A stretch of 64,000 nt of DNA from Apostichopus japonicus (taxonomy: Eukaryota > Echinodermata > Holothuroidea > Aspidochirotida > Stichopodidae), in NCBI RefSeq assembly GCF_037975245.1, contig NC_092583.1, positions 12,237,764-12,301,763 on the forward strand, given 5' to 3'. Shown in pieces: positions 11,593 to 63,900 of this stretch. Numbering within the stretch: the first letter of the stretch is position 1; each line of letters begins with the position of its first letter. Under the pieces are notes generated by a model. The model had not been told where the DNA came from. It saw nothing but the letters and a program-made list of their open reading frames with translations, and searched no databases. Position numbers and translations under genes: made by a program.

Positions 11593-11983
11593 GTTGGGCG
11601 TACGTGGATATACACCCAATGGAATGTTTCAAATGAGACGCATAGATGCCAAGTGCTGTATTATTACCTGATAGCCTGATTGAATTAAGCACTCTTAAGG
11701 TGTTTATTTTTTTTTTCATTTTTTATGATCAACATAATTCTATATACAAAAATCGTGAACAGAAAACTGCCTGAGAAATTAATCAACCAAAGACTTAATT
11801 TTAAGATTAAACTGAAACATTACATGGGTGAATATAATGCAGTTGAAAATTTATTTTGGAGACGGTTCAAATTTGGATTTACATTTCCTGATCTTAATTG
11901 TTTTCATACATTTATATAAGGCACTGGTGGCAAGTTTTAAATAATGTATTGCACTGATATTGCAGAATTGAGTTCTTAACTAG

Positions 11984-12662
11984 ACGTTTCGATCCTAGCA
12001 GAATCTTCTTCAAAGGCTAAATGACAAGTAACAGTAACAGAAGGGACAAAAACACGCACAGAATACAGACAGGTTAATGAGCATGGTGAACACAAAGAGA
12101 TGGATGTAAGGGGATTAGTAGACAAGGGATGGAGAAAAGGAAAAAAAACCAACAGGGGAAGAGGAGAGGTAGGAGATAAACAGTGGAGGGACAAAGAGAG
12201 GATTAAGGGAAGGGGGTAGGGAATAAACTGGAAAAGACAGAAAGATGTGGAGAAAAAAAGGGGTGGAAGAGAGCTATGAGAAGAGGAGTGATGGGGGGGG
12301 GGACACGGGCAGAAGGATGGGGGACAGAAGAAAAGTTAGTCCAGTTGGAGAACACTTTAACCTTCCCAACCATACCATTAACGACCCTACAGGGGAATGA
12401 ATCCTTAGGTAGCCGTCCTGACCTAGTACGAATCAGCAGAGAGAGGCTGTGGATGCAACGCCTTCGCACCATCCAGCCTCATGGGCTTAACATTCAGGAA
12501 GGATATGACTATTTTTTTTTTGTCCCTTCTGTTACTGTTACTTGTCATTTAGCATTTGAAGAAGATCTTGCTAGGATCGAAACGTCAGGCCAACCTACTT
12601 TTACACATCCTCCTACACAGGCTCTCTAGTGGATAGCAGTTTGCTAACAGTTTTATTTTATT
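11984..12662. mobile_element. Penelope-like fragment with 16-bp target duplication
   Basis: Present after gene A and absent at the matching site after gene B (near 52,035). Flanked by direct repeats TTGAGTTCTTAACTAG at 11968-11983 and 12663-12678. On the plus strand it encodes the typical end of a PLE GIY-YIG endonuclease ORF: RISRERLWMQRLRTIQPHGL followed by NIQEGYD. Two hammerhead-like hairpins lie in inverted orientation at its ends (minus at 11983-12018, plus at 12552-12590). Confidence 0.72.
12552..12590 (+). ncRNA. Hammerhead-ribozyme-like motif, degenerate core
   Basis: Core UUGAAGA (first C mutated), an unpaired A, a near-palindromic stem II ending GGAUC, GAAA, then CGUC. Stem I has a mismatch (GCAU against AGGC). 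An inverted copy sits at 11983-12018 at the other end of the same element. Probably inactive. Confidence 0.4.
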
Positions 12663-14623
12663 TTGAGTTCTTAACTAGTAAGAATAAAAACCATCTTCCT
12701 GATTGTTCAATGAAAACATAACTTACCCTCCCTCCTTCCCTCACCCACCCCTCCTCCCACTCCAAACCTGCTGCATTTTACAATGACAGAACAAAAGATC
12801 TTTTCTCGTCGTGTCTTCTTTTGTTCTTTTTATTGTCTTATGGTATACTTATCATTGTCTAAAGATAGTTGATGTAACAAGTTCCATTCGCAAGATATCA
12901 TCCAACTTATTTCAAAATTATTGTAATTAAAGTATAGTTGATTTTCACATATTTTTTATATTGTTTTTAGACATTTCATACCTTCAAATTTAAACTTGGT
13001 TTAATTTCTCTACATTCTTGGGTCTGCTTATACTCTCTGTATCTTGTTTCATGTCTTGTCAGTAGTTAAAGGGTCTCCGTCAGTTAAGAAAATATTGTTG
13101 TAATTCCAATATCTGTGAAAAGACAATCAAAGACAAGAAATGTTTTTACTGGGATGTATACACCCTGCATAACCGTTGTTCTTAGGAATCAAGTGTTGTG
13201 TGTTCCTAATTGGAAAGGTTAACGAAAATCCAATTTTAATGACTGCTTGTGTCAATATAAATAACTAATCCTGGATCCGTTCCGAACTTCTTGTAAGAAT
13301 CCTTGAAAGTAGAACTCTTAGTCACAGTATAACAAATTACTCTTTAAAATAGTAAATTAAGCTTTTGAAAAAGTACGGAAGCTGACAGAATCTACCATTA
13401 CAGACTTTTCAATAATCTCCAAACATTTTCAGACTATATATAGTATATTGTTCATAATATCCTGATGTTATTCAAGTCTAATAATTTCTTGATTGCCCTT
13501 ACAAAGTGGAAAGTAAACGTATTATGGCAACCACCCCCCCCCTCCATGCAACTCCACCCCCTCCCCTCGAAAATGAAATCAGAGTAAGAAAAGTAAAAGA
13601 GCACCAAATGAAAAGTCCATAACTTTAATCTGTGTATGGATAGAGCAACCAGTGTGATTCTACTCCTTGGCCAACAGCGATACCAAAGTTGATAGCTTGG
13701 AGTCCAATGTTGTTAGGATATGTCAGGAATGCATTTCCATCATGCATAGTCCTGCCACAGTTACTCTCCTCAATGGTGAAGCTACCGATCTGTATTTCAG
13801 GGTCTGTTACCAAGGCACTGACAATCTCAAGAAAGAGGAACCCTACTAAGCTGGATCTTATGTTTGGCAACACCAAACTGGCCGAAAAAGAGGAGCTGGA
13901 GATTCTGGGAGTCACAATTGACAGCAAGCTGACCTGGGCAAAACACATCTCCAAGGTATCATCCAGAGCTGGACAGAAACTGGGGTCCCTGAGGAAAGTT
14001 GCCAACAAATTGGACATCAGGGGACGAGCAACAGTCTACAAGGCTCAGGTCCGTAGCGTGATGGAGTATGCCTCTCTTTCATGGATGAGTGCCTCGCCCA
14101 CAACCTTAGGACTACTTGACTCGATCCAGAAGAAGGCCCTTCGCATCATTGGCACAAGTGAGGAGAAAGTACGAACTGAGTTGAACATCTCATCTCTTCA
14201 CCAAAGACGTCAGGTGGCAGCAGCGACTGTTCTCTATAAGATGCACACCAACTCGTGCCCACCGGACCTAAAGGCAATGCTACCACAACCCTTTGTAGCT
14301 ACACGCTCTAGCTTGTCGATGCCCAGCCATGCTTTCACAGTACCAGTTTCGAGGACAGTCTCCACTGGCAGGACCTTCATTCCCTCTGCGGTACAAGTAT
14401 GGAACAGCCTACCAGATAGCGTAGTTGGTGACATTTCTGACAACGGTGCTCAGTCCTTCAAGTGCAGGGTGCATCAGCATCTTATTTTCTGTGCCTGATG
14501 CTGTAGTAAGCCCCTCCCTTCTAGTTGTTCTAAGTTGCTGTGGACCACTGATTGGCCCATGTGGATTTTCTTTATAGTACCCTGTTGTCTATATTTGGTC
14601 TTGACTTCTGTCAATCTGCATTA

Positions 14624-17600
14624 GTCAGGTGGCTTAGCAACAATTTTCAGGCTTAACGTTACCGGCCGGACAAAAGTACCAAATTTGGCATGGAGTTTCT
14701 TTTCGACCTATCTATCGATTTTATCCGTGGAACCCACTTTATCGGTTCCGATTTTTCAAGATGGCGGCCAAAATCCAAGATGGCCGCCAGAAAAAAAGGA
14801 AATGTCATATATCTGGCTGTAAAAATCGGAGATGAACAAATGAGGGGTCAATTAAGGGGTTTCCGAGCTCACTGAAACAGATGATGGTCATGGTATGTTG
14901 CTTGGGCCACCCACTTCCAAGATGGCGGCCAGAGTCCAAGATGGCCCCCTGGAAAAAAAGGAAATTTCATATATTCAATCCCCAAACCCCCTGTGCCCTT
15001 TTCTGATCGGGACCATCAAACCTTCCGTCCTCAAACGTGTAAATGAAACCGGGCTAGCACCCTGACTATATGTTATGGCTGGTATTCTAATTGTGTCACT
15101 TTGGCTCAGGAAGCTACTTAGGACTTATTGGGGAACTTTGAGGTGTGATCGGCCGTGGATAGACACTGACGCAAAGCTGGTTATTATATGGGAGTTACGA
15201 GTGTCATGTAAGACTGATTACATTGAGTCAACTATATAATAGGGTAACTTGAGGGAAAACAGACCAGATGTGAATACCGACTCATTGAGAGATTTTGTAC
15301 GATTGTGCACCCTTCATAAACACAACGTCAATTGTGCGAACAACACACGCTTAAGTCAGGTCACTAGTCATCTGAGGTATTTAGGTCGTTCTTTTCGAAC
15401 CTGTACTCCAGGGCTGCTATTAGCGAGGATCTCCAGGAAGACTTGTTGTCTGGTATAGACAAGCCCCCCCCCCCCCCCCTTCATAAACACATACCAATTC
15501 TGCGAACAACACACGCTAAGTCGGGTCGCCAGTCATCTGAGGTCAACCAATAACACTAATAACCAAAACAACAACAATAACAACCAATAACACCAATAAT
15601 GAAGGCGTGAAACCATCATTCCCACACCACCCGGACAAAGGGACACTCCAGCAAAAGGTGTTGCATAGTCCTGATGGCTTTACAGCCCACACAGGGACAA
15701 ATCCCATTACCTAATCGCCACCTGACTAGGCGAAAATGGTTAGTGATGAGGACCCCATGTGCAATCCTCCTCGCCAAGTCCCGGAGACGGCTATCTAGTG
15801 ACTTACAACACACAGAACACCACACATTTGGAGAGATGGCGGTTTGGCAAGCCGAGGGGGCCACGTTCAGCAGAACATCTGGCCCACCCTCCTCTTTGAT
15901 TCTACAAAGTGAGTCACCAATCTGAGTATACACCCCGAAGGGCGTGTCGCCTTTGGCCGGTTATTGGAAAAGGATCCGGGCCAGTAGTGGCGAAAAAGAA
16001 AACCACCCCAGAACCTAACAAAAAAGGCAAACGAGGGATTCTCAAACGCAACGAAAAAACCTTTCAAAAGGAGAAAGCGCAGTTAAGATGGTAGGTGGAC
16101 CAAACCATGCCCACCCGCTCAAGGGGGTCTTTTACAGAATGGTCCTTTTGAGAAGGTTTGGTTTGCACTTTCCACAAATGAAATAAAAAATGATCCTCTC
16201 CAATCGCACCAAGGCATAATCTGGTGCAGCGATCACCGTACCAGGATACCAAAGTAGAGGAACAATAAAACGATTGACAACTGTAACCTTCCCAGGGAGG
16301 GAGAGTCACCTCCGATTGAATGTGTCGAGCCTTGCCTCCACCTGATCAGCCTTCCCGGCCCAAGTGGTGGCCTCCGGGGCACCATAACCTAGCCAGATGC
16401 CGATTACCCTGATCATGACATCTGACCAAGTAGCATCGAATGGGAGGGATTGGCCACGCCAACCTCCTGAATGCAGCCCTTTGGTCTTGGACTTGTTAAG
16501 TCTGGCACCGGTAGCCTCTTGGAAGGTGGCCAAAACCTTCGATAAAGGCTTGAAGGAGACGAGGTCCGACACAATACAAGTGACGTCATTGGCATATTGC
16601 ACGCATTTAACTCTAGCCCCACCCGGTACATTGAAAGGTCGAAACCCCAAGCATCTGTCCAGCGAGGTACTGAGCGTTTCGCTGAAGAGAACATACAACA
16701 ACGGGGAGAGGGGACAACCCTGACGGACTCCCCTTTGAACCGGGAAGGGACCAGAAGTAAATTCGTTAACAGTGACCATGCTCGTGACGTCCTTATATAG
16801 TAACGAGACCCAACGAATAAACACTGAGTTCAATCCGAAGGACTCGCACAGCACAAGTCTGGAGAGGACCTACAATATCCGGCATCACATCCGCTAAGCG
16901 ATTTCCTAATGCTTTGGCCAGGATTTTGTAGTCCAGATTTAACAGCGTTATTGTACGCCTATTAGGGTCCAAAGGGTCTCCCACTTTGGGAGGAGAACAA
17001 TATTTCCAGCCCTCTGTATTTGGCTCATGTAATTCAACTGGAAAGCGGTAGCGAACACGTCTCTAAAGTCCCCACCGAGAACCTCCCAGAAGGTCCTATA
17101 GAACTCAGCAGGGAGGCCATCGGGACCGGGGACTTTCCCTTCTTCATCGCTGCAACCGCTGTCCAGAGCTCACCAACGGAGAGATTCGAACCCAAGCTAT
17201 CGTTTTACTATGGGGGGGGGGGGGGCCTTGTCTATACCAGACAACAAGTTTTCCTGGAGATCCTCGCTAACAGTAGCCCTGGGGTACAGGTTCGAAAAGA
17301 ATGGCTTAAATACCTCAGATGCCTAGTGACCTGCTTAGCGTGTGTTGTTCCCACAATTGACGTTGTGTTTATGAAGGGTGCACAATCGTACAAAATCTCT
17401 CAATGAGTCGGTATTCACATCTGGTCTGTTTTCCCTCAAGTTACCCTATTATATAGTTGACTCAATGTAATCAGTCTTACATGACACTCGTATAACTCCC
17501 ATATAATAACAGGTTTGCGACAGTGTCTATCCACGGTCGATCACACCTCAAAGTTCCCCAATAAGTCCTAAGTGGCTTCCTGAACCAAAGTGACACAATT

Positions 17601-18225
17601 AGAATACCAGCCATAACATATAGTCAGGGTGCTAGCCCGGTTTCATTTACACGTTTGAGGACGGAAGGTTTGATGGTCCCGATCAGAAAAGGGCACAAGG
17701 GGGGTTTGGGAATGAATATAGGCTACATGAAATTTCCTTTTTTTTCCAGGGGGCCATCTTGGATTCTGGCCGCCATCTTGGAAGTGGGTGGCCCAAGCAA
17801 CATACCATGACCATCATCTGTTTCAGTGAGCTCGGAAACCCCTTAATTGACCACTCATTTGTTCATCTCCGATTTTTACAGCCAGATATATGACATTTCC
17901 TTTTTTTTCTGGCGGCCATCTTGGATTTTGGCCGCCATCTTGGAAGTGGGTTACTCAAGCAACATGCCATGATCATCATCTGTTTCAGTGACCCCGTAAA
18001 CACCTGAATTGACCCCTCATTTGTTCATCTCCGATTTTTACAGCCAGTTATATGACATTTCCTTTTTTCTTGCGGCCATCTTGGATTTTGGCCGCCATCT
18101 TGAAAAATCGGAACCGATGAAGTGGGTTCCACGGATAAAATCGATAGATAGGTCGAAAGGAAACTCCATGCCAAATTTGGTACTTTTGTCCGGCCGGTAA
18201 CGTTAAAGTTGCTAAGCCACCTGAC
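14624..18225. mobile_element. Foldback (long-TIR) element with TA target duplication
   Basis: The two ends are exact inverted copies starting GTCAGGTGGCTTAGCAAC, each abutting a TA dinucleotide (14622-14623 and 18226-18227). The arms are very long: left 14624 to about 15465, right about 17215-18225. The right arm is longer because an internal unit of roughly 110-170 bp, containing a 'GGCCATCTTGG' motif, is duplicated. Both arms end internally at a poly-C/poly-G run. The TA duplication suggests a Tc1/mariner-like end reaction, but no transposase is seen. The interior carries a reverse-transcriptase fragment. It is inserted in the LINE 3' UTR. Confidence 0.8.
15543..17440 (-). mobile_element. 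Tx1/L1-like LINE reverse-transcriptase fragment inside the foldback
   Basis: Minus-strand coding pieces in RT order: a stretch near 17,100 with KKGKVPGPDGLPAEFYRTFW (frame-shifted), then GDPLDPNRRTITLLNLDYKI, RQGCPLSPLLYVLFSETLS, the catalytic-site segment YANDVT (Asn replaces the first usual Asp of the YADD-type site), and a zf-RVT zinc finger CPCVGCKAIRTMQHLLLECP. A short AAC/AAT-type repeat at 15543-15600 forms its 3' tail. Several frameshifts and the altered catalytic residue make it inactive. Its upstream coding part extends into the right inverted arm. Confidence 0.72.
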
Positions 18226-25633: not shown

Positions 25634-25643
25634 GGTTTACAGT

Positions 25644-25708
25644 CCTTTTTAGCCTCTGAAGAAGATCCTGCTAGGATCGAAACGTCAGGCCAACTTACTT
25701 TTACACAC
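25644..25708 (+). mobile_element. 65-bp insertion consisting of a hammerhead-like hairpin
   Basis: The insert is flanked by direct repeats GGTTTACAGT (25634-25643 and 25709-25718). It holds little besides a hammerhead-like motif (25652-25690) and the tail CAACTTACTTTTACAC also seen after the PLE motif at 12,590. Caution: the left flank has further GGTTTACAG copies, so the direct repeat could be partly a local tandem repeat. Confidence 0.5.
25652..25690 (+). ncRNA. Hammerhead-ribozyme-like motif, intact core
   Basis: Order of parts: GCCU (stem I), CUGAAGA (matches CUGANGA), one extra A, stem II GAUCC with loop UGCUA and GGAUC, GAAA, CGU, C at the predicted cleavage triplet GUC, then AGGC, which pairs with the opening GCCU. 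Stem III would be ACGU, self-complementary, so a full catalytic fold would need two molecules. The extra A departs from the canonical core. Confidence 0.55.
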
Positions 25709-25734
25709 GGTTTACAGTCTTGTATGAGGCTAAT

Positions 25735-31247: not shown

Positions 31248-51455
<20,208 letters not shown>

Positions 51456-51556: not shown

Positions 51557-53203
51557 GTTAAGCGAACGTGGCTATACACCCAATGGGATGCTTCAAATGA
51601 GACGCATATATGCAAAGTACAGTATTATTACCTGATAGCCTGATTGAATTAAGCACTCTTATGGTGTTTTTCATTTCTTATGATCGACATAATTCTATAT
51701 ACAAATCATGAACAAAAAACCTGCCTGAGATATTAATCAACCAAAGACTTAATTTTACGATTAAACTGAAACAATGCATGGGTAAATATAATGCCGTTGA
51801 AAGTCATATTTAAAGCACTAAACAAACAAAGCACAAAAAGGAGTAAACAAGGAACTAAATGATGGGAATAAAAAGTACAAAACAATAGATTTAACATTGC
51901 TGGGGAAAAGATTTATTTTAGAAACGGTTCAAATTTCCATTTCCATTTCCTGCTATTAATTGTTTTCATATATCTATAAAAGGCACTGGTGACAAGTTTG
52001 AAATAATATATTGCACTGATATTACATAAATGAGTTCTTAACAGTAGTAAGAATAAACATCATCTTCCTGATTGCACATGAAAACTTAACTAAACCTCTG
52101 CCCTCTCAACCCCCCTCCCCACCCCCACCCCAAACCTATTGCATTTTACAATTTACCATCATCCTGTAGTTTGCCATTTGTATATTGTTTATTATGTTGT
52201 TGTTTGTCTAGTCCACAAGTGGACACGAATATCAGGTTTATTGATTTATCATAAATTTATTAAGATGATTTTAACAGAAATATCTTTTCTCTGTAAATGC
52301 AGAAATCTTACCATTCATAACTTTTGTTGTAATGACAAGAAAAAGAGAACAACAGATATTTTGTCGTCGTTTCTTCTTTGTTCTTTTCATTGTCTTCTGG
52401 TATACTTTTTTATCATGACTAATCATCAAGTTCCATTCGCAAAATATCCGACAACTTATTTAAAAATGTTTGTAATTAAAGTTACACTATAGTTGATTTT
52501 CACATAGTTGGTTTTATATTTAGACATTTCATGCCGTAAAATTTAAAGTTGATCTAATTACTTTACATTCTTGGGTCTGCTTGTATTCTCGGTATTTTTT
52601 CTAATGTCTTGTATGTAGTTAAAGGGTCTCCGTCAGCTAAGAAAACATTGTTGTACTTCCAATATCTATGAAAGACAATAAAAGACTAGAAATGTTTTTA
52701 CTGGGATGTATACACCTTGAATAACCGTTGTTCTAAGCAATCAAGCGTTGTGTGAGGAGTGTTGTGACTAGACTCTATTACCCCCACCCAAACATTTTCT
52801 AATTGGCAAAAATTTGTATGAAAATCCCATTTTAATGGCTGCTTGTGTCAACAAAACTAACTAATCCTGGATCCGTTCCGAACTTTCTGGTCAGAATCTT
52901 TGAAAAGAAGAACTCTAAGTCACAGTATAACAAATTACTCTTTAAAATAGTAAATTAAGGGTTTTAAAAAGTACGGAAGCTGACAGAATCTAACCTTACA
53001 GACTTTACAAAATCTCCAAACATTTTCAGACAATAATATATTGTTCATAATATCCTGATGTTTTTCCCGTCTAATAATTTCAAATGTGCCCCAGAAAATT
53101 CTGCCACCGTAATTATAGCCCTTACAAGTGGGAAGTAAAAGCTGCATGACAAACCCCGCCCCTCTACGCAACTCCACCCCCCCCCCCGCCATCCAAAATG
53201 AAA

Positions 53204-58194: not shown

Positions 58195-58224
58195 AAATTT
58201 TCGGACACCCTGGTCCTTCGTCAG
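58195..58224 (-). ncRNA. Hammerhead-ribozyme-like motif
   Basis: Minus strand: CUGACGA (fits CUGANGA), extra A, stem II GGAC with loop CAGGGU and GUCC, GAAA, AUU, U. The stem III bases AAUU are self-complementary. Stem I pairing is weak here. Confidence 0.42.
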
Positions 58225-58520
58225 GTGTTAAAAGAGTGATTGAAATCACTTTAGTCTACCGTAAGCCCCAGACTGCTCAAAGTGCTTGAATCCATGTGCT
58301 GACCTGATATACAATACATTGGCCAAACCTCCACTCCTTTTCGTCTGCGACTTAATAATCACAAAAGCACAATCAGACTCAACAAAACCAGTTTTCCGTT
58401 GGCTGAACATTTTAATCTTCCACAACACAACATCGTCTGTCTTAAGTTTGCCATAATCCTGGGTAATTTGTCTGACCATTATAAAAGAAAATTAAAGTAC
58501 GTTGACACTGTCATGGTCGC
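58195..58520 (+). mobile_element. Penelope-like fragment (GIY-YIG region)
   Basis: Plus-strand peptide GQTSTPFRLRLNNHKSTIRL, then FPLAEHFNLPQHNIVCLKFA and HYKRKLKYVDTV, again the PLE endonuclease pattern, with frame breaks. A minus-strand hammerhead-like hairpin lies at its left end. It precedes the gene C leader repeats, next to a (TA)n tract. Confidence 0.6.
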
Positions 58521-58800
58521 AATAGGGATATGGCTTTTCTTTCCGGGTTCAAGCACTTTGAGCAGTCTGGGGCTTACGGTAGAGTTCATGAGAGCAGGGA
58601 GTTGTTCATAACAACTCCTTGATGAGAGTACCATTTACGACGACAAGATCTCTAGCGCAAGTCTGGCGCCGGTGTATCATACCGTTAACATTCGACTTGG
58701 AATACATGTGAAGTGGATAGCAACAACTAACGTAAAAGGAAATACTCGTCATCTTGTGATTAGACTTGAAACTGAGAATCAAACGCATGATTTAGTGTGA

Positions 58801-60614: not shown

Positions 60615-62056
60615 ATGATCTTCTCCACCCATTTGTTGACATTTTTGTTAGTTATTGTTATCACTGCAGAGGTAAATCATTGTGAAACTGTTACCAATGA
60701 TCCTGGTAACAAAGAAAATGATGTTGAAGATATCAAGAATCAGGTTACGTATCAGGAAGGCGATGGTAGTACCTGCAAGAACGAATTGTACAACGTATTG
60801 TACAATGCAACAAACGCGCAAGTGGCAGGTTAGTCTTTGAATAAGCACAACACTTCAGAGAGTCATGTGCTTAAAGGAGTAAGAGTCTCGTGATTGCTCG
60901 CCAAGTAATGCGGTGTTTTAATTTGTTTAAAGAAAGGGCAAGGAGTGATATTTCATACGGAAACAAAAAGTTGTTGGTAAAATATCAGCTACCATAATTG
61001 GATTGATGTGACACCGCCCAAATAACATAACAAATGGTTATGAGCAATGAATCAAAAGTTTAAACTGTCCGAATTAATTGATTATTTGGGCATATTTTCA
61101 GATATCGTTGTTGCAGCTGTAGTTTTGTTTTTGCTTGTATGTTAAGAGCATAAGTCGGTGTCTGTCTGTATGTTTTTCTGTTTGTATGTTTGTCTGTCTG
61201 ACTGCTTCTATACCTAACTGCTCGTTTGTCATCGTCTTTCTCTTTCTCCGGCTCTTTTATGTCTAAAATATAAAATATATATATTTTAATTATCTTCTTA
61301 CTCATTTATTTTTATTTCTTTCGCATCCAGCTCTTAATTCTTTCGGGATACCTAATACCGGATTACTAGCAGGTACCAGAAGCTGGTACGGACATTTCAG
61401 TGGTTGCACAGAACTACCAGATTTCCAGTACTGTATGCTAACTGTGCATGTCAACATAGCAACTCTCTCAATGGTAATATTGCAAACACGCAGTCTTCAC
61501 TTAACGTTATCCAATCATTTATACGTGTTTGTTGTATATTCATAGTTGCATGTTCATATAGCTGCATGTTCATAGCCAATAGCCTGCACCCACCCAAGCA
61601 ATTATCCACACTCTCGTTAGGAAATATACATACAAATGTTCTTGTTTGTGAAGGATTTATGCGCTGTAGTGTGTGTCAGCCAAACTCTGATAATAAGGTG
61701 CATCTGTCAATACTGGACATCGATAGGCCCCTCATCCTCCCTCTCCATCTTATGCCCCCTCCATCTTATACCCCCCTCCATCTTACGCCCCTCCTCTAAA
61801 TCTTAAACCTGTGCCGAGGATCAGGATTAGCATTCACCGACAAGGGTAACAGAGATGTGTGACTGTGGGGAGGGGGGGGGGTGTTTGTGTGGGTGTATGT
61901 GTACGTATAGTACGCTACTAACTCGGAATATGCTTCATAACAGGGGCTGGGAGTCGTTATATGAGCCTATTTCGTCTCACGGAATCAACAATAAAATCCT
62001 TTTTTTCAGTTTTCTATTGTTTAGAAATGACCTATGAAACCTTACCCTGTAATATA

Positions 62057-62107
<51 letters not shown>

Positions 62108-62111
62108 CTAT

Positions 62112-62167
<56 letters not shown>

Positions 62168-63046
62168 GGCCTCTGGACGTTCGGTCGGCGTCCGTGGCCT
62201 GGTTGGTTGGGGTGTCTGCGTACAAAGCGGGAGGCCCGGGTTCGAATCCCGGGGGAGGCTGGAAGTTTTTTCACTGTTCTGGATTTTCCTTCTCATTACG
62301 TTTTCAATTATATTTATTCTTTTGCCTTTGTCGTTTACCTCCATTTCATTGACATAATGTATGTTCAATGTATCTCTTTCGAGATCCGGCTTTGGGAATC
62401 ACAAATGATTTTCGAGTTGGTTAGCATCATGTTTGATCAATGGTGTGAGGCAGGATATGTCACCAAAGACGGAGCTGGTATCGTTCGATGCGGGTGTCGG
62501 ACGCCTTTAGTGGGATTGCGGCCTTCCTTGCCGGCTTAGGGCCTCTAGACGTGCGGTTGGCGTCCGTGACCTGCTTGGTTGGGGTGTCCGCGTACAAAGC
62601 GGGAGGCCCGGGTTCGAATCCCGGTGGAGGCTGGAAGGTTTTTTCACTGTTCTCGATTTTCCAACTCATTACGTTTTCAATTATATATATTCATTTGCCT
62701 TTGTCGTTAACCTACATTTCATTAACATAAAGTATGTTCAAAGTATCTCTTCCGAGATCCGGCTTTAGGAATCACAAGGATTTCGAGTTATTTAGCATCA
62801 TGTTTGATCTCTAGAAGTGGGCAAATATGTCACCAAACAGAATCAGTATTGTTCGATATGGGTGACTAACGCCTACAGTGGAATTACGACCTTCCTTACC
62901 GGTTTCGAACCTCTGGACAATCAATCAGCGTCCATCGCCTAGTGGTTAGGGTGTCCACATATAAAGCGGCAGGAGGCCCGGGTTCGAATCCCGGTGGAAG
63001 CTGGACGTTTTTTCACTGTTCTGAATTTTCCAACTCACTACAGTTT

Positions 63047-63095
<49 letters not shown>

Positions 63096-63900
63096 ATATA
63101 TATATATATAAATATATATATATTTATATTTATATCTATATTTATATATTAACAACTTTAAGCTGTTTTGTGATTTTGGTTTATTTCTCCGATTACTTAA
63201 TCAGACGGAGTTACATCAACTTTCCATAAGATGGGGAATTTGTGCACCGAAGATCTGTTCAGATAATGGCATACACGATAACGTGGAAATGCTCACTAGT
63301 AAGTCGTGCATAATGGATGTAACAAGATAAAAGATGTCGCTTGATACCGCATATACAGAACAACAATGGTACTGTCATTAGAGAAAACGACCTGAAATTG
63401 AAATATCTATCAACATTTGTTTCATATGGAAAGATCAATCATCAGTTGTCAGGGACCCTCCAATATGTGGAGGGGGTGGACGGGGGTGGTCCACCAAATA
63501 ACAGCAATGATTTTCAACACCACTGAAATATTGGTCTGACTCCTACCACTCCCCTCCCCATCTACATACATGCAAATCGTGTTGATTGTATAACTAGCCA
63601 TTGAGGCACATTTCATCCACAACACATCCACCGCCACTCCACCGCCACCAACCCCTCCTCTCTCAACTGTTCAATGTAGATACAGTCTCTGAAGAACTTG
63701 CATTCAAACATTTTTCTACAACATACATCTTTGAGGTTAGATCTCTCCTCGGTATATATTGATATTTATTTTTCTCTCGTTCCTTTCAATGTAGCATATC
63801 TACGTTCCAGTACCGGTGTGAATTTAACCGGTGTATCATCTAAAGCCTACTGTGTACAGAATAATCGAGTGCCGTATTCAACCGGTTTTTATATTACAGG
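60615..63900 (+). CDS. nrf-6-like: NRF-6-like acyltransferase, gene C (exons 1-3; runs off the right edge)
   Basis: Third array member, truncated by the window end. Exon 1 60615-60828 encodes a signal peptide beginning [20 protein letters not shown] and the acidic segment ending NAQVAG; its donor is GTTAGT where gene B has GTAAGT. Exon 2 61331-61473 gives [15 protein letters not shown] and the conserved FSGC and FQYC. Exon 3 63686-63900 gives [20 protein letters not shown] through SKAYC and ends in phase 2 like the other copies. Intron 2 (61474-63685) contains a (TA)n tract and three tRNA-like repeats. From about 62,460 to the end, the sequence follows the start of the window (gene A) more closely than gene B. 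Exon 4 onward lies outside. Confidence 0.86.
62055..62165. repeat. (TA)n tract in intron 2 of gene C
   Basis: TA with AATA/CTA interruptions, abutting tRNA-like copy 7. Confidence 0.88.
62188..62262 (+). repeat. tRNA-like repeat, copy 7
   Basis: In intron 2 of gene C, abutting a (TA)n tract on the left. Confidence 0.62.
62560..62634 (+). repeat. tRNA-like repeat, copy 8
   Basis: Equivalent to copy 1 at the start of the window (same leader, near-identical). Confidence 0.65.
62928..63001 (+). repeat. tRNA-like repeat, copy 9
   Basis: Equivalent to copy 2, with the (TA)n tract following in both. Confidence 0.65.
63051..63150. repeat. (TA)n tract in intron 2 of gene C
   Basis: Follows tRNA-like copy 9 exactly as the tract at 583 follows copy 2. 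Confidence 0.88.

Follow-up and report, generated by a model that had tools for sequence, protein, structure and literature searches.

Penelope-like element hammerheads in Apostichopus japonicus: 5' junctions pile up at the ribozyme's 5' edge and not at the cleavage site

The window analyzed here, a 64,000-nt stretch of the Apostichopus japonicus genome (C23:12237764-12301763), holds pieces of Penelope-like elements (PLEs) and other retrotransposons as well as tRNA-like repeats. Genome-wide searches covered 671.6 Mb in 35 contigs. The features considered are:

11983..12662, plus strand: single PLE insertion with inverted hammerhead-bearing arms, flanked by a 15-bp duplication TTGAGTTCTTAACTA
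11983..12013, minus strand: U3 member of family A (C3 replaced by U), from the descriptor scan
12556..12586, plus strand: second family A hammerhead of the U3 subfamily, C3 again replaced by U
25645..25708, plus strand: solo hammerhead insertion of about 64 bp, comprising the 5' strand of stem I, the ribozyme and a short tail
25656..25686, plus strand: family A hammerhead from C3 to C17, core and stems I-III complete
34470..34500, minus strand: family B hammerhead CUAAAGA (G5 to A) with an extra A
34919..35924, minus strand: disrupted PLE coding region with RT and the first part of GIY-YIG, lying upstream of the family B motif
58195..58224, minus strand: family C motif with exact core and an extra A, stem I not formed

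The motif loci are called 12013-, 12552+, 25652+, 34466- and 58195- below. Four of them had been proposed in an initial annotation and are present where it placed them; 12013- had been overlooked and is added here, and taken as a whole that observation was partly confirmed. Our descriptor combined the core CUGANGA, 0-3 inserted bases, a stem II with 4 or more pairs, GAA and a 4-base palindrome. In the window it found two palindromic loci with an exact core and five with at most one core mismatch, compared with means of 0.0 and 0.73 (maximum 4), respectively, in 30 first-order Markov sequences. Five loci are thus more than expected by chance, although any single imperfect locus could be a chance match. 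The hammerhead-type assignment is supported. The core CUGANGA ... GAA ... UH is exact at 25652+ and 58195- and has one change each at 12552+, 12013- and 34466-. A stem II hairpin is present at all five loci, and so is the short palindromic stem III (ACGU, AGCU or AAUU) that had been described for four. The extra A before stem II, likewise pointed out at the outset, is constant: exactly one A lies between A9 and stem II at every locus and thus in three motif families, and one inserted base was seen in 147 of 148 family A descriptor matches within 361 kb of genome, overlapping loci being counted more than once.

Only 25652+ has the whole core and all stems, in the order CUGAAGA, extra A, stem II GAUCC/GGAUC, GAA, palindrome ACGU as stem III, and C17; its RNA alone folds into stems I and II. 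At 12552+, stem II reads GAUCU/GGAUC with a G-U pair and stem I has one broken pair, while stem I of 12013- is broken adjoining the core. The motif at 34466- has a formed stem I, stem II GUGC/GCAC and stem III AGCU. At 58195-, stem II is GGAC/GUCC and the palindrome AAUU, and stem I has no pair adjoining the core with C17 as written and one contiguous pair in another register. This missing stem I is the reason to consider that 58195- could well be a chance match and no hammerhead at all, a reading to which we give somewhat less than even weight: the combination of exact core, stem II, GAAA and palindrome was absent from the 30 random sequences, and with a stricter descriptor that required GAAA, 361 kb of genome yielded only family A and the window's two other loci. 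All five loci appear to fit the minimal hammerheads with short stem III known from PLEs, and judged by sequence the window motifs are real copies of this self-cleaving RNA, cleavage here being predicted.

Rfam hammerhead models did not match at E values up to 10, neither in the whole window nor in 25640-25710 alone. For the short stretch at 25652, Rfam returned only CRISPR-repeat and other look-alikes far below cut-offs. Among these, 25652-25683 weakly resembles the CRISPR-DR7 model (18 bits, cut-off 37), as each contains a hairpin with GAAAC after it.

The link to PLEs proposed in the initial annotation holds for families A and B, which have coding remnants, and stands on the motif only for 58195-. 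Remnants lie near three of the five loci (34466-, 12013- and 12552+), and none was detected at 25652 and 58195; 25652 is tied to PLEs through its family membership and 58195 only through its motif. The family B motif is placed 3' of a broken ORF at 34-36 kb with similarity to RVT_1 (E 3.5e-05) and to the start of GIY-YIG (E 0.023), neither of which reaches the Pfam cut-offs. For family A, inspection by eye of a copy elsewhere in the genome (L104) revealed an RT segment, one resembling GIY-YIG and a C-terminus common to the window's 12-kb element, then an untranslated stretch and the hammerhead. A Pfam search of two L104 segments and a PDB search gave no match, and no full-length element was found. 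A 39-nt inverted repeat (97%; 58255-58293 and 58545-58583) upstream of the 58195 motif possibly represents the arms of a decayed element.

Both 12013- and 12552+ belong to the 12-kb element. Its left arm of about 320 bp repeats the 3' region in inverted orientation, and its right part carries the ORF C-terminus. We regard 11983-12662 as one insertion because of this inverted left arm, the flanking TTGAGTTCTTAACTA duplication at 11968-11982 and 12663-12677, and a related stretch without the insertion at 51918-52152. The solo insertion at 25645..25708 ends in the tail TTTTACACA(C) and is flanked by the 11-bp duplication GGTTTACAGTC at 25634-25644 and 25709-25719. Inverted terminal arms, an optional tail and target duplication are traits of PLEs, and all occur here.

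The window contains further repeats. A series of inverted repeat arms at 14653-15351 and 17337-18206, 91-99% complementary, forms a large palindrome-like duplication, the centre of which holds an RVT_1 coding piece (16306-16869, minus strand). Seven tRNA-like matches exceed the Rfam gathering score (468-542, 32751-32825, 33801-33873, 43362-43433 and within 62188-63002); they are very similar to each other and probably represent a tRNA-derived SINE. Related repeat blocks at 1-1300, 32000-33900 and 61300-63900 lie about 30 kb apart and are 73-99% alike in the pieces listed.

Family A, comprising 25652+, 12552+ and 12013-, is abundant: 5,323 genome places (2,656 + 2,667) lie within 3 mismatches of the 31-mer, and the reversed 31-mer pattern gave no match genome-wide at the same threshold. 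The family B pattern CTGANGAN{10,24}GAAAGCTC has 276 + 261 genome matches compared with 6 + 7 for the control. The commonest form among the 100 family B matches listed is CTGAAGA-A-GAGC-TAGTTTT-GCTC-GAAAGCTC, and most of the listed relatives have a GAGC/GCUC stem II. Relative to them, the second stem II pair of 34466- (GUGC/GCAC) has changed from A-U to U-A on both sides, and one copy among the matches listed shows the one-sided state GAGC/GCAC. The stem II of 34466- is a genuine compensation, accompanied by the G5-to-A core change, and the single good case at the four loci. The initial annotation had claimed compensating differences in all stems; beyond this one two-sided swap the claim was overstated, since the loci are either different families or repeats of one. 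In particular, 12552+, 12013- and 25652+ are not independent cases of compensation because they belong to one family.

Two samples of family A copies were compared, neither of them random, as both were chosen for good matches. The first was anchored on the hammerhead by a near-perfect 31-mer and contains 104 copies (88 loci and the window); 2 of 106 copies, including 12556+, were left out as imperfect. Match extent was followed up to 70 nt upstream and 78 nt downstream, the length of the reference. The second was anchored on the tail by a perfect 52-mer and contains 89 of the 100 places listed, the other 11 being left out.

A covariation check on 58 gap-free tail-anchored copies found a single two-sided change, in stem II, and none in stems I and III. 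Stem I cells were unchanged in 223 of 232 cases (1 G-U, 8 broken), stem II cells in 339 of 348 (4 G-U, 4 broken, 1 two-sided and paired) and stem III cells in 108 of 116 (4 G-U, 4 broken). The sole two-sided paired change belongs to L117, a U3 copy. The whole core is retained in 26 of the 58 copies. In C3 copies the ribozyme (C3 to C17) has diverged by 1.35%, the downstream flank by 1.61% and the upstream flank by 4.76%, a value that includes subfamily differences; the respective values in U3 copies are 2.87%, 4.43% and 2.69%. Selection on RNA structure, as initially proposed, is not borne out: the ribozyme is not clearly better kept than both flanks, and the copies therefore do not demonstrate it. 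Family A copies mostly record their source elements.

C3 is reached by 59 tail-anchored copies, of which 31 carry C there, 27 U and 1 a deletion. The base at this position is linked to the last base of the flank (C-A 26, C-C 5, T-A 3, T-C 22; Fisher p 8e-8, three other rows being left out of the table). Exact 35-mers, of which two variants were counted, occur 897 times genome-wide with C3 and 621 times with U3, and the control matches none. From this linkage and these counts we conclude that U3 is a subfamily. C to T is a common change and U3 ribozymes are somewhat more diverged (2.87% vs 1.35%), as ordinary decay after insertion would predict, yet it is very improbable that U3 arose in this way and not from a source lineage, given the linkage to another base, the 621 exact U3 copies beside 897 exact C3 copies and the presence of U3 in both arms of the window's 12-kb element. 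Four U3 copies (L118, L120, L121 and L153) all have AUGU instead of ACGU, and this subgroup may also have lost the stem III palindrome.

In the active hammerhead core, G8 is the pairing partner of C3, and replacement of C3 by U would, like that by G, probably be strongly harmful. In an element from Anolis, C3G abolished cleavage (PMC11167929). A U3-G8 wobble may preserve some activity, a C3 partner within a dimer could cleave U3 RNA, and U3 copies may have been mobilized by the proteins of C3 elements.

Downstream of the ORF comes the motif and then a tail, either short (about 21 nt) or long (about 78 nt), where insertions end. Among the 104 hammerhead-anchored copies, 40 end 19-23 nt past C17, 39 end at 73-78 nt and 25 elsewhere; at the 78-nt end of the reference, copies diverge by eye. 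These ends mark the tail known from other PLEs (PMC3846280), in Anolis the stretch bounded by two internal RT start sites (PMC11167929). The 12013- copy ends at C17, with one ambiguous base common to copy and target. We considered this left end of the 12-kb element as a cleavage footprint and rejected it, since other inverted arms end about 21 nt further and only 3 of the 104 copies end 0-2 nt past C17.

At the 5' side, 30 of the 104 hammerhead-anchored copies stop matching 4-11 nt upstream of C3 (U4-U11), where stem I starts, and 50 run for at least 67 nt. Without 22 head-to-head copies, 23 of 39 truncated copies end in U4-U11 compared with 4.7 expected under uniformity. The 89 tail-anchored copies have their 5' ends in the tail (17), at +1 (1), in the ribozyme (12), in U4-U11 (12), elsewhere upstream (21) or match through the full 70 nt (26). 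Seven tail-anchored copies end exactly at U8, where 0.47 were expected (p 4.6e-7, uncorrected for the 122 positions); this test leaves out L136 and one of the twin places L154/L155, and its uniform null is crude. The copy scored at +1 (L136) resumes past an internal deletion. Near the cleavage site this leaves L167 (+2) and L173 (H1), with 1.4 expected for three positions, so that 5' ends show no preference for the cleavage site and do not accumulate at C17/A1.1 in the 89 tail-anchored copies. The 5' junctions pile up at the 5' edge of the ribozyme and not at its cleavage site. If T-rich targets matched TTTAGCCT by chance, or if there was shared microhomology, such a cluster might be an artefact. 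The targets are indeed A+T-rich and the final matched bases are Ts, and an end at U8 may therefore truly be at U5. We nevertheless consider an artefact improbable: the clusters at U5 and at U8-U11 are both situated where stem I begins, U4-U11 holds 30 of 104 copies in one sample and 12 of 89 in the other, and in head-to-head pairs both arms end at this same place.

Many copies are tiny, begin 4-11 nt upstream of C3 and stand solo or head-to-head, several with target duplications. A duplication score of at least 9 was reached by 9 of 35 short copies, which include arms of paired copies whose duplication sits elsewhere, compared with 9 of 676 mismatched flank pairs; among the head-to-head pairs, 9 of 11 scored at least 11. 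In L026, L052, L085, L087 and L096, at least one arm ends no more than about 6 nt from C3. Palindromic joins also fall within the ribozyme or the tail (L110, centred on ACGT, L135 and L142). In L110:1-261 a 48-nt palindrome consists of two head-to-head tails centred on the stem III ACGT. Sampled copies are single or head-to-head, with same-strand neighbours at three loci. Tandem PLE units were considered as a source of dimers and rejected, as the same-strand pair of L086 is a repeat of 4.0 kb with other sequence in it; the other same-strand pairs are L023 and L065. None of the long-tail copies examined has the element body next in direct order.

A template of cleaved RNA would predict junctions clustered at C17/A1.1; in the 89 copies they are not. 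The junctions at the 5' edge together with the abundance of U3 suggest that insertions are usually templated by uncleaved RNA and do not require an intact ribozyme in cis. Our best explanation, with a probability of roughly 0.7, is that these are minimal PLE hammerheads at the 3' end of the element, that uncleaved RNAs serve as templates and that cis cleavage is unneeded for copying. Reverse transcription would start in the tail on uncleaved RNA and read back past the cleavage site and the whole ribozyme. Many cDNAs would end at the 5' edge of the ribozyme, either the starting point of the RNA or a place where the enzyme halts; TCATTT at this edge resembles an initiator and might mark an RNA start. 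Two cDNAs from both target strands, cut and extended as in the Anolis Poseidon element PAc, would be joined to give head-to-head arms. Cleavage in dimers may still happen and would have left no mark in the sampled junctions. Points against this explanation are the end of the window copy 12013- at C17 and of 3 of the 104 copies 0-2 nt past it, a possible residual or trans cleavage of U3 RNA, a possible movement of U3 copies by proteins of C3 elements, and the choice of both samples for good matches.

The palindromic stem III could instead, in an extension of the dimer suggested by the initial annotation, pair two RNAs into working dimeric ribozymes that are under selection, cleave, and provide the cleaved RNA as the transposition intermediate. 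Cleavage as a dimer has been reported for PLE hammerheads, according to passages that cite the work (Lunse et al. 2017), the 25656 RNA by itself forms stems I and II, the whole core persists in 26 of 31 C3 copies and exact C3 copies number 897. We still hold such dimers to be unlikely as the route of transposition, as 5' ends do not pile up at the cleavage site, the U3 subfamily is abundant, family A lacks clear covariation and no long-tail copy examined continues directly into an element body.

Tentatively, the proposal that uncleaved RNA is copied can be taken further: a PLE lineage without C3 may have reached at least several hundred copies, and solo and head-to-head hammerhead units may be a regular product of reverse transcription on uncleaved RNA. 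If this is true, the hammerhead would be mainly a structural landmark, as an RNA start or a protein-binding site next to the RT start, and self-cleavage would be optional. It would also offer an explanation for the origin of dispersed single hammerheads in their thousands. The role of cleavage can thereby be tested on genome sequence already at hand, through insertion junctions and a natural C3 variant present in hundreds of copies.

Minimal type I hammerheads of PLEs were reportedly described by Cervera and de la Pena in 2014 and by Lunse, Weinberg and Breaker in 2017. The motifs described here resemble them, as far as passages citing these works tell, in core, stems I and II, a missing or 2-bp stem III, the palindrome, the PLE setting and the thousands of dispersed copies; on this comparison they would form no separate class by anything tested here. 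They share core logic and stem order with the canonical type I hammerhead of Rfam but differ in a stem III that is too short and in one extra base before stem II. A pattern scan of viral contigs gave 13 matches, none of them such a hammerhead by eye, and a search of viral contigs with the PLE protein gave none that was confirmed.

Passages in PMC6466107 and PMC7761336 already contain the idea of dimers for PLE hammerheads, and the latter, a review from 2020, describes what these hammerheads do in vivo as still a mystery. The consulted passages of the PLE literature (PMC11167929, PMC6155905, PMC10085705, PMC6466107, PMC7229834, PMC3846280 and PMC7761336) describe no C3-to-U subfamily, no 5'-edge insertions and no junction test at the cleavage site; novelty is unproven. 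The Penelope elements of Adineta vaga share inverted pLTRs, a 31-bp tail, target duplications of 8-10 bp and palindromes at inverted joins with the copies described here; the word hammerhead is absent from that text, whereas here the joins include head-to-head hammerheads (PMC3846280).

The closest experimental counterpart is PAc, in which the tail is the stretch between two RT start sites, ribozyme core mutants still inserted in vitro and both target strands were cut and extended (PMC11167929). Both systems have a hammerhead near internal RT starts and a tail between two starts. However, the PAc hammerhead overlaps the start of the ORF and PAc copies are described as tandem, while the present motif lies 3' of the ORF and the sampled copies are single or head-to-head (PMC11167929). 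Our result agrees with the in vitro data of this one Anolis element and extends them to an unrelated-looking family in another genome (PMC11167929).
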